NCBI RefSeq assembly: GCF_000682775.1
Contig: NZ_AWFI01000012.1
Span: 558,001 to 622,000 of the forward strand
Reading direction: 5' to 3'
Length of the DNA stretch: 64,000 bases
Source: Hyphomonas sp. L-53-1-40
Lineage (GTDB): Bacteria > Pseudomonadota > Alphaproteobacteria > Caulobacterales > Hyphomonadaceae
Shown here: positions 34,128-51,299 of the stretch, one piece after another
Numbering within the stretch: the first letter of the stretch is position 1
Layout: each line of letters begins with the position of its first letter
Notes under the pieces: model-generated
What the model saw: the letters and a program-made list of their open reading frames with translations, nothing else
Told to the model about the DNA's origin: nothing
Databases searched by the model: none
Program-made: the position numbers and the translations under genes

Positions 34128-35357
34128 CTAGCCGAAATTCGACAGGCGCTGGACGAGCTCCTGTGGCGGCGCTGTGGCTTCCATCAGGGATGACTTGATC
34201 GGGCGCGGCGCGCCGAATACGTGGCCCTGACCGTACGGGATGTCATATTCTAGAATCTCGACAACGCTGGCCTCATCCTCGATCTTCTCGGCAATCATTG
34301 TGATGCCATAGCGCGAGAACACGGCGCTGACTTCTTCTCCATCAACGCGGCGGTTGATCGACGAGACCGGGCGCGGACCGGTTGGGTCGCGCAGCTGGTC
34401 CATCAGGTTCGTGCCATTCATCTTCACGAAACGAATTCCCGCCGACTGAAGGCGCGGCAGGTCGAGGCCCAAATTGTCGGCATGATCAATGGAGAAGCGG
34501 AAACCAAGCGCTGTCAGCTTGTCCATATTGTCCCGCATCGCGCGCGAACGTGTCTCGAACCGGTCTGCCGTAATCTCGAAGATCACCGCGCCGGACAGGT
34601 CACGATTCTCGGTGATGAATTCCAGGAACATCGGGAAGAAGGTTGTGTCTTCCAGCGACGCCGCAGAAATATTGCAGAATACGCCGACGCGACGGTCACG
34701 CTCAGCCAGGCGACGCACGATCTGGACACACCGGAACAGCGTGAAATTGTCGATGATGCCCATCAGTTTGGCGCGGCGCGCAGCATCAAGAAATTCCGCT
34801 GGCAGAACCAGGGAACCATCCGGACGGCGCAGGCGGGTGAACCCCTCGTAGAAGGACACACGACGCTGGGGTAGAGACACGATCGGCTGCAGGTGCAGGT
34901 CAACACGACCATCCTTCAGCGCGTCGCGCACATCACGCAGGACAGCATCTTCTTCCGGTGCCACGACCGCGGTGCTGGTCGTTTCCGCCAACTTGTTTTC
35001 AAAGCTCTTGGACAGCCGGTCGATCAGGCTCTCCAGCTGCTTCATCTCGGTCACGAGCGCGTCGCGGCGCTCGGTCAATTCGTGCTTGACGGTCGCCTCG
35101 ACGGCATCCGTGCGCGCTTCAATGACATCAACACGTTCCGCGGAATCGCGAACGGTCCGCTCCACCCGGTCGATGCGGTTATCGATGTCCTTGGTGGCGC
35201 GTCCTGAACTGGCGAGTAGGTGAATCTGCCCAAGCAAAGCCGTGGTGATGCCACCCGCCGCAATCGACATAGGCAGGCCGACATCCGTCAGCGTGAAGAC
35301 GCCGTAGCCGACGCCGCCGCCGATGGCCGCGTATAGAAGGAACAGAACAAAAGTCAT
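34128..35357 (-). CDS. tipF: TipF-like membrane protein with degenerate EAL domain
   Basis: The 409-residue product has two N-terminal membrane segments (about 3-50), a long coiled coil (about 55-125), then an EAL-type domain. The signature glutamate motif reads EGF (171-173) instead of EAL, and the DDFG motif is replaced by DHADNLG, so phosphodiesterase activity is unlikely. The same build is known in Caulobacter TipF, a c-di-GMP receptor needed for flagellar assembly at the pole. A palindrome lies upstream. Identification as TipF rests on architecture. Confidence 0.75.
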   Translation of the reverse strand: MTFVLFLLYAAIGGGVGYGVFTLTDVGLPMSIAAGGITTALLGQIHLLASSGRATKDIDNRIDRVERTVRDSAERVDVIEARTDAVEATVKHELTERRDALVTEMKQLESLIDRLSKSFENKLAETTSTAVVAPEEDAVLRDVRDALKDGRVDLHLQPIVSLPQRRVSFYEGFTRLRRPDGSLVLPAEFLDAARRAKLMGIIDNFTLFRCVQIVRRLAERDRRVGVFCNISAASLEDTTFFPMFLEFITENRDLSGAVIFEITADRFETRSRAMRDNMDKLTALGFRFSIDHADNLGLDLPRLQSAGIRFVKMNGTNLMDQLRDPTGPRPVSSINRRVDGEEVSAVFSRYGITMIAEKIEDEASVVEILEYDIPYGQGHVFGAPRPIKSSLMEATAPPQELVQRLSNFG

Positions 35358-43715: not shown

Positions 43716-46508
43716 TTAGTCTCCCGTATCTTCGGCATCATCCATAGCGGTTTCAGCGTCTTCCACAAGCCGTGCGACAGAAACCACACGTTCGCCTTCG
43801 GCTGTGCGGAGCACCCAGACGCCGCCCGTCGACCGACCGGCAATGCGGATCTGCTCCACAGGCGTGCGGATCAGCTGGCCTGCATTGGTGACCAGCATGA
43901 CCTGATCGCCGTCGCCCACCGTGAAGGATTGCGCCACCTGCTTGACCGGGCCCAGCTTCTTGTCGCGTCCCCAAATATTCTGGGCGACAAGGCCTTTACC
44001 ACCGCGGCCAGTGACACGGTAGTCATAGGCTGACGAGCGCTTGCCCATGCCGTCATCGGCAATAGTCAGGATGAATTCCTCGGCGGCGCCAAGTTCGGCA
44101 ATGCGTTCAGCGCTCAAGGCAGCCTCGTCGACGGCTTCTTCGCCATCATCGTCCGAGACTTCCTCTTCCTCGCCCGTCGCAGCGCGGCGCATCGCGGCGG
44201 CGTGCTTCAGATAGCCGCGCGCCTCCTCCGACGTGACATCCATGTGGCGCAGAATGCCCATGGAGATCACTTCATCTCCTTCACCCAGACGGATGCCCCG
44301 GACACCGGTCGAATTGCGCCCCGCAAAGACACGTACATCCGGAACGGCAAAGCGGATACACTGGCCAAGCGCTGTGGTCAGCAGGATATCGTCCTTCTCG
44401 GAACAGATCTTCACTGACACGATGCCGTCATCATCTTCCAGCTTCATCGCGATCTTGCCGTTGCGGTTCACGCGAGTGAAATCTGACAACTTGTTACGGC
44501 GGACCGTGCCGGTCTTCGTCGCGAACATGACGTCCAGCTCATTGCGGGACTCATCGTCCTCCGGCAGCGGCATGACGCTTTCGATACGCTCATCGGCGGC
44601 CAGTGGGAAGATATTGACCAGCGCCTTGCCGCGCGAGTTCGGCCCACCAATCGGCAAGCGCCAGACCTTCTCCTTGTAGACCATGCCGGCCGAGGAGAAG
44701 AAGAGGACTTCAGTATGCGTGGTCGCCGAGAACACGTTCACGACGAAGTCCTCGTCCTTCATGTTCATGCCCGAGCGGCCCTTGCCGCCCCGATGCTGCG
44801 TACGATAGGTCGAGAGCGGGGTACGCTTGACGTAGCCGCCATGCGTCACGGCCACGACCATGTCTTCGACCTCGATCAGGTCTTCGTCTTCCATGTCGAT
44901 GCCGCCAAAGGCGAATTCCGACCGTCGTGGAACGGCGAATTTCTCTTTAACTTCAGAGAGCTCGCCCTTGATGATGTCCAGAACACGCTGGCGCGACCGC
45001 AGGATGCTGAGGAATTCCTCGATCTTCTCGGACAGACCCTTGGCTTCATTGCCAATCTCGTCACGGCCGAGGCCCGTCAGACGGGACAGCTGCAGCGCAA
45101 GAATGGAGCGCGCTTGCTCATCGGACAGATAGATCGTGTCGCCGTCGCCCTTGCGGGTCCGGCGGTCCGCGATCAGATCCAGCAGCGGGCCCATATCCAT
45201 GATCGGCCACGCTTTCTCGAGCAGAGCTTCGCGGGCTGCATTCGGATCGGGCGAATAGCGTATGATGCGAATGACTTCGTCAATGTTGGCCACGGCCATG
45301 GCCAGGCCGACAAGAACGTGGGCGCGGTCGCGCGCCTTGTTCAATTCGTGCTTGGTGCGGCGAACCACAACTTCCTGACGGAAAGCCACAAAGCAATCGA
45401 GCACTTTGCGCAGGTTCATCAGCTCCGGGCGACCACCATTCAGGGCCAGCATGTTGACGCCGAAACTGGTTTGCATCTGGCTGAAACGGAAGAGCTGGTT
45501 CAGCACCACTTCCGCGCTCGCATCCTTTTTCAGTTCGACCACAACACGAATGCCGTTCCGGTCGGATTCGTCCCGCAGGTCAGCGATGCCTTCGATGCGC
45601 TTGTCACGCACGAGTTCCGCGATCTTTGTAATCATCGCGGCCTTGTTCACCTGATAGGGAATTTCGGTCACGATAATGGCCTGACGGCCATTCTTGGCTT
45701 CTTCGATATCGGTCTTGGCGCGCATGATCACGCTGCCGCGGCCGGTGGTCATCGCCTTGCGGCTGCCGGACATGCCCATGATCTGGCCGCCGGTCGGGAA
45801 GTCAGGACCGGGGACGATTTCGAGCAGGGCGTCTTCATCCAGCGTCGGGTCTTCGATGATTGCCAGTGTCGCGTCGATCACTTCGCCCAGATTGTGCGGC
45901 GGGATATTCGTCGCCATACCGACCGCGATGCCGCCAGCACCATTGACCAGCAGGTTCGGATACTGCGCCGGCAGGACAATCGGCTCTTTCTGGGATCCGT
46001 CATAATTGTCCTGGAAGTCGACCGTATCCTTGTCGATATCGGCGAGCAGATAGGTCGCCTCCTTCGTCATGCGGCTTTCGGTATAACGCATGGCGGCTGG
46101 TGGATCATTGTCGATCGAGCCGAAATTGCCCTGACCGTCTACGAGCGTCACGCCCATCGAGAATGGTTGGGCCATGCGCACCAGCGCGTCATAGATCGCA
46201 GAGTCACCGTGCGGGTGGTAGTTACCCATCACCGCGCCGACGATATTTGCAGATTTCTTGTACGGCTTGCTGGGCGTGTTACCGCCCTCGTTCATCGCAT
46301 ATAGAATGCGGCGATGAACAGGTTTCAGACCATCCCGCACATCCGGCAGCGCCCGGCTCACGATGACGCTCATCGCATAGTCGAGATAGGAGCTTTTCAG
46401 CTCGGATTCGATAGAAATCAGCTCAATGCCGTCCGGAAGGGGCGCGCTGCCCTCACCGCCATTTTCTGGCGTTTCCGGGTCGTCTGGCGGAGTTGTGTCG
46501 TCGCTCAT
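43716..46508 (-). CDS. gyrA: DNA gyrase subunit A
   Basis: The 930-residue product has catalytic Tyr142 in AAMRYTES. The quinolone region HGDSAIYD keeps Ser103 and Asp107, the residues equivalent to Ser83 and Asp87 of E. coli. The GyrA box is QHRGGKG in the C-terminal DNA-wrapping domain. An acidic insert ([17 protein letters not shown]) interrupts that domain, as often seen in Alphaproteobacteria. The N-terminal 25 residues are an acidic extension. Confidence 0.97.
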
Positions 46509-46640
46509 GGAGAATTCGTCCTGGCTACGGTGAAATTAACGGGAATCACCTGTTCCGATACAGGAACATGTCTAGCATCCCGCCATGATTGAAACAAATG
46601 CGACAGGGCCAAAATAGCAGTAAATACGGGCGAAATCGCC

Positions 46641-47498
46641 CTAAAACGGGGTCTCGGAAGCAGGGCTCAGCGCCCCGATGGTTTCGAGCGCTTTGCGGAC
46701 CGCCTCTTTGCGCGTTTTCAGTGCCGGATTTTCAGCGTTCATGTCCAGATTGAACGCGAATGCATATGTACCGGGAGCGTCACCTTCGGTCTGTTCCAGC
46801 CAGCCAACATACCAGCCGATATCCGTTTCACCGGGCACACTCTTCCAACCCGTCTTGGCATGGATCGACCAGCCATCACCCTCCTCGGCGAGCATCATCG
46901 GAATTGCCTGCTCATAGGTCCGCGCCGAAAGCGGCAAAGTGCGGGCAGACAGTTTCGCGAGAAACACGACTTGCTCCCGCGCGGAGGTCTTCAGCGGGCC
47001 CTTCAGCCAATAGGTCTGAATATCGTCCTCGGTGCCCGTGTCAGCGTTTCCATAGCCAAAGCGCGCGAGCCAAGTGCTCAGCGCCACACTGCCGATACGC
47101 GGCGTGACCGTCTGGTAGATCCACACTGTCGAGCGCTGGAAGGCAGAAGCAAAGTCCTGGCTTTCATTCCACCCAGGCAAGAACCGTGTCTCACCACCCC
47201 ACTCAAACCACTCATCGGAGCCGCTGACAGCGCCTGTCTCCAAGGCAATCAGCGTGTGCGGGATCTTGGAGGTCGATGCGGCCACGAAACGCTCAGATGG
47301 CCGCTCACCGCTGGTGGTCCATGTCCGACCGTCTTCAAGCCGATAGACGACGAGCGCCGCTGTATCCTGCGTCAGGGATTTGCTGGCAAGGACAGGATCA
47401 AGATTTCCGACCGGGACACTCGGCGGAGACTGGCATGCGCCCAGCACGGCGACCAAAGCCACCGCCAACCAGTGCGCAGGATGCCAGCCTGCCCGCAT
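46641..47498 (-). CDS. Class D (OXA-type) beta-lactamase, lipoprotein
   Basis: The 285-residue product has a lipoprotein signal (LGAC, Cys 22). The class D motifs are all present: STSK at 75-78 (nucleophile Ser and the lysine that becomes carboxylated), STV at 123-125, YGN at 149-151, Trp164 in YWLKG and KTG at 215-217. STSK replaces the common STFK. It would hydrolyse beta-lactams in the periplasm. The gene starts 4 bases after ssb with no good ribosome binding site, so it is probably read from the ssb transcript. Confidence 0.92.
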   Translation of the reverse strand: MRAGWHPAHWLAVALVAVLGACQSPPSVPVGNLDPVLASKSLTQDTAALVVYRLEDGRTWTTSGERPSERFVAASTSKIPHTLIALETGAVSGSDEWFEWGGETRFLPGWNESQDFASAFQRSTVWIYQTVTPRIGSVALSTWLARFGYGNADTGTEDDIQTYWLKGPLKTSAREQVVFLAKLSARTLPLSARTYEQAIPMMLAEEGDGWSIHAKTGWKSVPGETDIGWYVGWLEQTEGDAPGTYAFAFNLDMNAENPALKTRKEAVRKALETIGALSPASETPF

Positions 47499-47502
47499 AG
47501 CG

Positions 47503-47982
47503 CTAGAACGGGATCTCGTCGTCGAGGTCCTGGCTGAAACTTTCCTGCGGACCGCTCATCTGGCGCGGCGCGCCAGCCTGCCCCTGATAGCCGCCGAAAT
47601 CGTTGCCGGAAGACCGGCCACCGCCTTCATTGCGGCTGTCCAGCATGGTCAGCGTGGAGTTGAAGCCGCGCAGCACGACTTCAGTCGTGTAGCGGTCCTG
47701 GCCATCCTTGTCCTGCCATTTGCGGGTCTCGAGTTGGCCCTCGATATAGAGTTTGGAGCCCTTTTTGATATAATTCTGGACAACGCGGACAAGGCCCTCG
47801 CTGAAAACCGAGACGCGATGCCATTCGGTCTTTTCCTTGCGTTCGCCCGTATTCTTGTCCTTCCACGTCTCGGACGTGGCGAGCGAGAAGCTGGCGACCT
47901 GACCGCCATTCTGGAACTGGCGGACTTCCGGGTCCTGTCCAACATTTCCGACAAGAATGACCTTGTTCACTGATCCTGCCAT
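47503..47982 (-). CDS. ssb: Single-stranded DNA-binding protein
   Basis: The 159-residue product has an N-terminal OB fold ([70 protein letters not shown]), a Gly/Gln-rich linker, and the C-terminal tip DLDDEIPF that docks partner proteins. It is divergent from uvrA across a LexA-type box, the same pairing as in E. coli, and is followed at 4 bases by a class D beta-lactamase gene. Confidence 0.97.
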
Positions 47983-48111
47983 GGTTCCAACTCCGCTCCG
48001 GTCTGTTTCGCTTTCGATTCGAATCCGCTTTTACTCTGCTCAAGGCGGTGTGTCGCCCGCTGCGGTGAAAATTCCCCCGCCTTCGGCATGAAAAAGCAGC
48101 GCCCGCTGTAT

Positions 48112-48126
48112 GTTCACATTTTGTTC
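48112..48126. promoter_or_regulatory. LexA (SOS) box between ssb and uvrA
   Basis: GTTCACATTTTGTTC matches the alphaproteobacterial LexA consensus GTTC-N7-GTTC exactly. It lies 99 bases before the uvrA start and 130 bases before the ssb start. Both genes are classical SOS members, and the site could serve both directions. Confidence 0.85.
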
Positions 48127-48179
48127 TTGTCGTCAAGCTGGACTCAAGGCACACATAGGACCTAGCAGATATTTAGTCC

Positions 48180-48197
48180 CGTTTCGCTGGCGAAACG
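48180..48197 (+). repeat. Perfect inverted repeat in the uvrA leader
   Basis: CGTTTCGCTGGCGAAACG has two 8-bp arms around TG and ends 27 bases before the uvrA ATG at 48225. In RNA it would make a hairpin too short-looped to be ideal (2 nt). As DNA it looks like a protein-binding palindrome. Confidence 0.4.
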
Positions 48198-48224
48198 AGC
48201 ATCAATCCAGCAGAGAGCCCGTCA

Positions 48225-51200
48225 ATGGCAGAGTCTCCCTTCATCCGCGTGCGCGGCGCCAAGGAACATAATCTCAAGAATGTCGACGTGGATATTCCCC
48301 GCGGCGAGCTGGTCGTGATGACCGGCCTGTCGGGATCAGGCAAATCTTCGCTGGCTTTCGACACGATCTATGCCGAAGGCCAGCGCCGTTATGTCGAGAG
48401 CCTTTCGGCCTATGCGCGCCAATTTCTGGAGCTGATGCAGAAGCCGGATGTAGAGAGCATTGAGGGCCTGTCGCCCGCTATCTCGATTGAGCAGAAGACA
48501 ACCAGCCGAAACCCGCGCTCGACCGTTGGTACGGTTACCGAGATTTACGACTACATGCGTTTGCTGTGGGCGCGCGTCGGTATTCCTTATTCTCCCGCCA
48601 CTGGCCTGCCCATCGAGAGCCAGACCGTCAGCCAGATGGTCGACCGCACAATGGACCTGCCCGAAGGCACGCGACTCTACTTGCTCGCCCCCATCGTCCG
48701 TGGGCGGAAAGGGGAGTACCGCAAGGAATTTGCTGAACTGCTCAAGAATGGCTACCAGCGCGTCAAGGTCGACGGTGAGTTTCACGAACTGGAAAATCCG
48801 CCCAAACTGGACAAGAAATTCAAGCATGACATCGACGTTGTGGTCGACCGGATCGTCGTGCGCGAGGGCATGGAACAGCGTCTTGCCGAGAGTTTCGAGA
48901 CGGCGATCGGACTCGCAAACGGCATCGCTATCGGCGAATATGCCGATCTCGAAGAAGGCGAGACCGAGCCGAAGCGCATTACCTACAGCGCCAATTTCGC
49001 CTGCCCGGTCTCCGGCTTCACCATTCCCGAGATCGAGCCGCGCCTGTTCTCGTTCAACAATCCTTTTGGGGCCTGCCCGACCTGTGACGGTCTCGGACAG
49101 CAATTGAAGGTGGATGCCGGACTGGTTGTTCCGGACAAGGATCTTGACCTGCTGAATGGCGCAATCGCGCCCTGGGCCAAATCAACCTCACCCTACCAGA
49201 CCCAGACCCTGCAGGCCCTGTCAGCGCACTACCGGTTTGACCTGAAGAAGCCCTGGAACAAATTGTCGGAGGACATCCACCAGATGATCCTGTTCGGCAC
49301 GGGCGAAGAAGAAATCAATTTCGTCTACGACGACGGCATGCGCCGTTATGAGGTGAAGAAGACGTTCGAAGGCGTCATCCCGAACCTTGAGCGCCGCTAT
49401 CGCGAGACCGACAGCCAATGGGTGCGTGATGAGATCGCGAAATTTCAGGCAGCTGCACCCTGCCCGGCCTGCGGTGGCAAGCGTCTCAAACCTGAAGCAC
49501 TGGCAGTGAAGATCGACAGTCTCGACATTTCCGACGCCTCGGTTTTCTCCATCAAGGATGCTCACATCTGGTTTGGCAATGCGCACAAGGCGCTGACCAA
49601 ACAGCAGAACGAGATCGCCGGACGCATCCTGAAAGAAATCAATGACCGGCTCGACTTCCTCAATGATGTCGGCCTGGAATACCTGACGCTCAGCCGCGCC
49701 TCCGGCACGCTGTCCGGCGGGGAGAGCCAGCGCATCCGGCTCGCCAGCCAGATCGGCTCCGGCCTGACCGGCGTGCTCTACGTGCTGGATGAGCCGAGTA
49801 TTGGCCTGCACCAGCGCGACAATGATCGCCTGCTGGAAACGCTGAAACGCCTGCGTGACCTTGGGAACTCCGTGATCGTCGTGGAACATGACGAGGATGC
49901 TATCCTGACCGCCGACCATGTTATCGACATGGGACCGGCCGCTGGTGTGCATGGCGGCCAGATCATTGCCGAGGGTACGCCCGATGAAGTGATGGCCAGT
50001 CCGAAAAGCCTGACAGCAGACTATCTGAACGGCACCAAGGAAATCCCGATTCCGATGCGTCGACCGGTTGAGAAAGCCAAGCGCAAGGTGACCCTGAAGG
50101 GGGCCACCGGCAACAATCTGAAAAATGTCGACGCGACGATCCCGCTTGGCAGCTTTACCTGCATCACGGGCGTCTCCGGCGGCGGCAAGTCCACGCTGAT
50201 CATCGAGACGCTTTACAAGGCACTTGCGCGCAAGCTGAATGGCGCGTCGAGCCCGCCACAACCGTACCAAAGTCTTGAAGGTCTGCAGCATCTCGACAAG
50301 GTCATCGACATTGACCAGAGCCCGATTGGCCGTACACCACGCTCTAACCCGGCCACTTATACCGGTGCCTTCGGCCCGATCCGCGACTGGTTTGCCGGAC
50401 TGCCCGAGGCCAAGGCGCGCGGCTACGCACCTGGCCGGTTCAGCTTCAACGTGAAAGGCGGGCGCTGTGAAGCCTGTCAGGGCGACGGCGTCATCAAGAT
50501 CGAAATGCATTTCCTGCCAGACGTCTATGTCACGTGCGAAACCTGCAAAGGCAAGCGCTACAATCGCGAGACGCTGGAAGTCCTGTTCAAGGGCAAGTCG
50601 ATTGCCGACGTACTGGACATGACAGTGGAAGACGCCGCGAAATTCTTCTCCGCCGTGCCTGCGATTTCGACCAAGCTCGACACATTGAATCAGGTCGGCC
50701 TTGGCTATGTGAAAGTCGGCCAGCAGGCAACGACTTTGTCGGGCGGCGAAGCCCAGCGGGTGAAGCTCGCCAAGGAGCTCTCCAAGCGCGCCACCGGCAA
50801 GACGCTCTACATTCTCGACGAACCGACTACCGGCCTGCATTTCGAGGACGTTCGCAAGCTTCTCGAAGTGCTGCACTCCCTCGTCGACACCGGCAACACG
50901 GTCGTCGTGATCGAGCACAATCTGGATGTGGTGAAAACGGCGGACTGGGTGCTGGACCTCGGCCCTGAAGGCGGCGATGGCGGCGGCGAACTGGTCGCTT
51001 ATGGCACACCGGAAGATATTGCTGCCTGCACCGACAGTTGGACCGGTAAACACCTCGCCGAGACGTTCCGACGTCAGGACGAGCGCCGCGCCGCGCGCAA
51101 CAAGCGATTGCGAGCCGAAGGCACGAGCAAGGCAAAGCCTGCCGCCAAACCGAAGAAGGCCGCCGCAAAGGCGCCTGCGAAAGCCAAAGCTGCAGCTAGG

Positions 51201-51299
51201 CCGAAGGCCAAGGCCCCTGCAAAGGCCGCAACCAAGGCAACGCCAAAAGCAAAGAGCCCGGCAAAGCGGAAATCCCGCACGCCGAGCCCTGCCAAGTAA
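48225..51299 (+). CDS. uvrA: Excinuclease ABC subunit A with a lysine-rich tail
   Basis: This 1024-residue damage sensor of nucleotide excision repair has two ABC ATPase modules ([10 protein letters not shown] near 33 and [10 protein letters not shown] in the second half), signature sequences [11 protein letters not shown] and [11 protein letters not shown], and zinc motifs CPACGGK and CEACQGDG...CETCKGK. The first zinc site reads CPVSG, missing one Cys, which I recall as common in Alphaproteobacteria. After a normal end, residues about 967-1024 are nearly all Lys, Ala and Pro, like a histone H1 tail. The gene is preceded by a LexA box. Confidence 0.96.

Follow-up and report, generated by a model that had tools for sequence, protein, structure and literature searches.

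We propose that the class D beta-lactamase gene (bla) of Hyphomonas sp. L-53-1-40 forms a conserved operon with ssb, is expressed at a steady housekeeping level, and rises at most modestly in the SOS response, and we put the probability of this reading at about 60%. The window, that is, the whole stretch of 64,000 nucleotides that was analysed, includes the following features:

43716-46508, minus strand: gyrA, 132 nt downstream of bla (NCBIfam TIGR01063, 1105 bits)
46641-47498, minus strand: bla, class D beta-lactamase gene of the OXA-1090 family, 285 aa, probable lipoprotein (NF040784 score, solved class D enzymes, and invariant residues)
47265-47276, minus strand: codons of the STSK active site (S75-K78), position derived from the ORF; S75, T76, and K78 are invariant in 38 rows
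47499-47502, minus strand: 4-nt gap from the ssb stop to the bla start, without Shine-Dalgarno (sequence and scan)
47503-47982, minus strand: ssb, single-stranded DNA-binding protein, 159 aa (NCBIfam TIGR00621, 168.3 bits; Pfam PF00436)
48072-48077, minus strand: candidate ssb -10 region, GGGGAA here and TGTGGAwA in relatives (loose pattern across genomes)
48112-48126: LexA-type box GTTC-N7-GTTC, common to the divergent ssb/uvrA region (motif match, position conserved across genomes)
48225-51299, plus strand: uvrA, divergent from ssb (NCBIfam TIGR00630, 1455 bits)

The ORFs and their strands matched the preliminary description of this DNA, which had placed ssb and bla on one strand with a 4-nt gap. 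The gap letters between the ssb TAG (47503-47505) and the bla ATG (47496-47498) are CGCT on the minus strand. A Shine-Dalgarno scan of the window found no core before bla, in agreement with the earlier claim that bla has no ribosome binding site of its own. The exact GTTC-N7-GTTC box reported upstream of ssb was also found, as GTTCACATTTTGTTC at 48112-48126. Relative to ssb it occupies -144 to -130, with 98 nt between it and uvrA. The two genes diverge on either side of the box, and the preliminary description was silent on uvrA. A dedicated regulator adjoining bla was ruled out, as the neighbours of bla are ssb and gyrA.

The product of bla scored 461.6 bits on the NCBIfam model NF040784 (OXA-1090 family), above the curated cut-off of 400, and thus it is a member of this family. 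Against NF012161, which models class D in general, it reached 216.2 bits and so stayed below the cut-off of 250. In addition, solved class D enzymes aligned to the product within residues 45-280, and the class D motifs (SxxK, SxV, YGN, the omega-loop Trp, and KTG) were present, with KSG replacing KTG in two of the 38 rows of the bla alignment. All 38 rows matched NF040784 at 1e-50 or better. Residues S75, K78, S123, V125, G150, N151, W164, K215, and G217 were invariant in this alignment, and so was the lipobox Cys22, which marks the product as a probable lipoprotein. STSK had previously been taken for a second oddity of this locus. This is not so, because S77 is the usual residue among the relatives (STAK or STTK occurs in 3 of the 38 rows), and STSK is typical of the family. 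Furthermore, bla had dN/dS values of 0.07-0.22 in 13 pairs, for which those of ssb were 0-0.09. The bla values indicate that bla is under purifying selection, as for a working protein. The purified named member, OXAVL06/OXA-1090, hydrolyses ampicillin, oxacillin, and imipenem, whereas piperacillin and meropenem are not hydrolysed, according to the excerpts of its description (PMC9045261). The window enzyme belongs to the same curated family, and its own activity is a prediction. It would be an exported OXA-1090-type lipoprotein that destroys penicillins and perhaps imipenem, with both export and substrate range predicted from the sequence.

We searched 105 genomes of Hyphomonadaceae and found bla in 38 of them, namely 36 of the 42 genomes of Hyphomonas, one of genus g3, and one of genus g4. 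The preliminary description had proposed a survey of ssb-bla synteny in this family, and bla turned out to lie directly behind ssb in all 38 genomes. When the first possible start was taken, the ssb-bla gap was 1-18 nt in 36/36 members of the genus; it was about 29-39 nt in the two other genomes, depending on the start chosen. These results indicate that the arrangement is conserved in the genus and is not a local accident.

Six members of the genus have no bla, and two of them (G066 and G069) also have no detected ssb. For this reason, the latter two are absent from our uvrA+ssb+gyrA tree, which covers 51 of the 98 family genomes. In this tree, the bla-less G048, G062, G068, and G073 were nested among genomes with bla, which implies three losses of bla. 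For instance, the junction in G062 reads TAG-GATG and is followed at once by the 3′ flank of bla, which indicates that bla is cleanly deleted there, with a TAG-G-ATG scar kept. Furthermore, the bla distances tracked those of the neighbour genes (Mantel test on 35 genomes, without G027, G034, and the truncated G071; r = 0.72, a value reached in none of 2000 permutations). Class D beta-lactamase genes are often mobile in other settings, and the patchy presence outside Hyphomonas (2 of 63 family genomes) would fit the recent capture of a mobile resistance gene, with a place behind ssb that is due to chance. However, this reading is contradicted by the presence of bla in most of the genus, the nested position of the bla-less members, the distances that follow the neighbours, the scar in G062, and the single clade formed by the ssb-linked bla of Hyphomonadaceae (support 96/90). 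Near-identical bla in distant hosts would be required for it, and we consider it extremely improbable.

Two other observations were made on these loci. The Henriciella genome G027, a carrier of ssb-bla, has full-length copies of ssb at C17:409151-409639 and C17:438558-439013, about 29 kb apart and on opposite strands. Meanwhile, the uvrA-ssb interval of Hyphomonas hosts differing inserts of 1.2-1.7 kb (L082, L084, and L091), with a 277-aa ORF in L082 and look-alike ORFs of 363 and 369 aa in L084 and L091.

As expected of an operon, ssb and bla share the strand, a short gap without a terminator, and a conserved order. No terminator-like hairpin was found in the ssb-bla gap in 38/38 genomes, and the four weak hits of the scan were inside bla. 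For comparison, the same stretch after ssb had a hairpin hit in 21 of the 60 bla-less genomes. Many relatives have a Shine-Dalgarno core that either overlaps the ssb stop or comes after it (e.g., TAGGAGG). There is no such core for bla in 11 of the 38 genomes, including the window, G052, G070, and G037 (gaps of 1-4 nt). The missing core and these short gaps suggest stop-and-restart translation of bla in the group of the window. The coupling of bla to ssb, as first claimed from the window, is therefore well supported by the adjacency in every genome with bla, the tight gaps of the genus, the hairpin-free gaps, and the lack of an own ribosome site in the window. We infer that ssb and bla are co-transcribed. 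The two genes would form one operon, and the message of ssb would serve for bla as well; in the window, ribosomes that terminate at the TAG of ssb would probably re-initiate on bla 4 nt further along.

It could also be proposed that bla has a promoter inside ssb and that its place behind ssb is without regulatory consequence. In some relatives, the Shine-Dalgarno for bla overlaps the ssb stop, so that independent translation of bla is possible there; two BlaI/BlaR1-like pairs elsewhere in the genome would also be in line with separate control. However, no sigma-70-like match was found in 46400-48300 (0 versus 0.6 expected), and nothing stood out in scans of ssb from eight genomes with Caulobacter-type and sigma-70 consensus sequences, which were run without a shuffle control. 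The tight gaps in 36/36 of the genus also argue against an own promoter, which we regard as improbable. The two pairs (Penicillinase_R plus Peptidase_M56) are on other contigs, at G000:C17:93586-94931 and G000:C15:327925-329129 (L296-L300), and bla may be controlled by them in trans.

The exact GTTC-N7-GTTC motif occurred twice in the window, versus 1.62 matches expected, and there was no genome-wide excess of it (95 versus 110 for the reversed control). The second match in the window (34546-34560) is inside the coding frame 34128-35357 and is most likely due to chance. The motif by itself is not rare; what counts is its position upstream of ssb. In 92 of the 98 family genomes, which are related and hence not independent, the 250 nt upstream of ssb contained an exact box (GAAC-N7-GAAC on the ssb strand), and the other six had one-mismatch boxes there. 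By comparison, the counts for 12 control patterns, read on both strands, ranged from 0 to 10 of the 98 genomes (top values: CAAG-N7-CAAG, 10/98; spacing 3, 8/98), and base shuffles gave a mean of 0.68. In favour of SOS control, the genome has a lexA gene with an exact box some 40 nt upstream of its matched start; against it, recA has one-mismatch boxes only. Genomes without bla had the exact box upstream of ssb as often (57 of 60) as genomes with bla (35 of 38). Therefore, the box did not evolve for bla, which would inherit its LexA control.

The relation of the box to uvrA was also considered. An exact box was present in 65 of the 67 genomes with uvrA within 500 nt and in 21 of the 22 genomes without uvrA within 1 kb; nine more genomes had too little sequence to be sorted. 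Because the box is conserved and persists where uvrA is more than 1 kb away, LexA probably acts on ssb in Hyphomonadaceae, and on bla through it. Against this, among the six genomes with bla and without uvrA within about 1 kb, three had the exact box and three only a one-mismatch form. More than 1.2 kb separates uvrA and ssb in the bla-carrying G070 and G047, and each gene has its own box, while in G038, also with bla, the exact box is on the uvrA side only.

Alternatively, ssb and bla may be one operon that is constitutive, with the box serving uvrA only. A conserved block (GTTCTTGTCG...TGGACTC, uvrA strand) next to the window's box accompanies uvrA in G012, G016, G018, G022, and G024, where the two genes have separate boxes, and thus the window's box is probably above all a uvrA operator. 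Moreover, the box is upstream of the likely ssb -10, which falls at roughly -90 to -95, some 35 nt past the box. A loose -10 pattern was found at -140 to -60 in 79 of the 98 genomes, versus 13.6 in base shuffles. In E. coli, two of the three ssb promoters are thought to be free of LexA, as stated in the consulted part of PMC9505508. However, the box upstream of ssb is kept in nearly all genomes with a distant uvrA and in the genomes with two boxes, and the loci of a second family, f4, carry a box close to ssb (-48 to -72 in 16 of 17 loci from 16 genomes, and -233 in one). The persistence of the box where uvrA is not nearby would point to ssb, and its flanks in the window, which are of the uvrA type, to uvrA. 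We consider constitutive expression of both genes rather unlikely.

Under the preferred reading of an ssb-bla operon with a modest SOS response, bla would mainly be expressed at the same steady level as ssb, somewhat reduced by LexA at the box upstream, and DNA damage would raise the two genes jointly and modestly. LexA binding at the box, the rise of bla with DNA damage, and the size of the induction are predictions from the sequence comparison. A study of the S. meliloti uvrA-ssb promoters by Tapias and Barbe (1999) reportedly bears directly on the inducibility of ssb. The ssb gene of E. coli is highly expressed at the basal level and rises in an SOS-dependent manner after irradiation, an induction called moderate in the passages drawn from PMC9505508 and PMC3323433. 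In Caulobacter, uvrA is only 3.5-fold up without LexA (PMC6120978, in part) and rises late after damage (PMC12700426, in part). Given these moderate and modest responses, a rise of bla of at most a few-fold would be expected on SOS.

Beyond the family, a scan of genome contigs found ssb in the fetched stretch for 32 of the best 80 named loci, out of 173 relatives, and no ssb for 48; most of the relatives outside Hyphomonas among these best 80 of 173 are without ssb linkage. In an order-wide search, a bla match was found in 66 of 398 genomes, and all 29 matches outside the family were fetched. In family f4, ssb was upstream of bla on the same strand in 15 of 25 loci. The first possible bla start was 31-79 nt behind ssb in nine of them (the true start may be further in), and about 0.6-2.1 kb separated the two genes in the other six. 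No ssb was found within the 5-7 kb fetched in the other 10 of the 25 f4 loci and in all four loci of other families. Family f4 is probably Maricaulaceae, because an Oceanicaulis contig groups with it in the tree. In one f4 locus (L197, from G250), a strong terminator-like hairpin stands directly after ssb and before bla. Therefore, ssb and bla look transcriptionally separate there, unlike in Hyphomonas.

The bla tree included 115 rows (contigs L112, L117, L121, and L132 were omitted as repeats of included genomes), and a second tree with support values included 55 of them. The trees set the f4 bla apart from the Hyphomonadaceae clade, at the support given above, and unlinked genes of Roseobacter and Parvularculaceae fell between the two clades. 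Meanwhile, a single clade of ssb-linked bla was not rejected by the AU test (P = 0.076). The constraint held 28 of the 55 rows together, 15 of Hyphomonadaceae and 13 of f4; it included G344, which has bla and no ssb nearby, and omitted G289, which has a long branch. If ssb linkage in f4 has an origin of its own, the pairing has evolved at least twice.

A more far-reaching scheme can be drawn, in which beta-lactams stall division and so trigger SOS, LexA falls, and ssb-bla delivers a repair protein together with a drug-destroying lipoprotein. This would replace dedicated control of the AmpR/BlaR kind, and the enzyme would be intrinsic and perhaps carbapenem-active. Beta-lactams can trigger SOS in E. 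coli via DpiBA, according to the available part of PMC6863773. We consider the whole scheme doubtful. If the SOS step is real, an intrinsic beta-lactamase has been wired into the LexA regulon by its place behind a replication gene and kept there through the history of the genus, and the locus lends itself to a natural test of whether environmental bacteria have their beta-lactam defence primed by damage signals. Even with a small SOS effect, a resistance gene would be maintained by housekeeping transcription, in a lineage with relatives of a carbapenem-active enzyme.

Among the matches listed from the open-licence literature, titles and openings of abstracts held no report of a chromosomal beta-lactamase that is linked to ssb or controlled by LexA. 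Neither ssb linkage nor Hyphomonas is mentioned in the consulted parts of the OXA-1090 paper (PMC9045261). Known systems share several features with the present locus. In the divergent uvrA-ssb of E. coli and Vibrionaceae, a LexA site lies between the genes, and each gene keeps its own site after an insertion, as the consulted part of PMC3323433 describes; both features are also found among the present genomes. Similarly, the integrase of class 1 integrons has a LexA-type site upstream of a resistance-linked function, as here, judging from parts of PMC9090394 and PMC3375312. Unlike E. coli and Vibrionaceae, the present locus has the alphaproteobacterial type of box and a beta-lactamase gene behind ssb. 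A further SOS-linked resistance function is qnrB. Unlike this gene and the SOS-linked integron integrase, bla is an old gene of the chromosome that sits in a probable housekeeping operon, for which SOS control is predicted.
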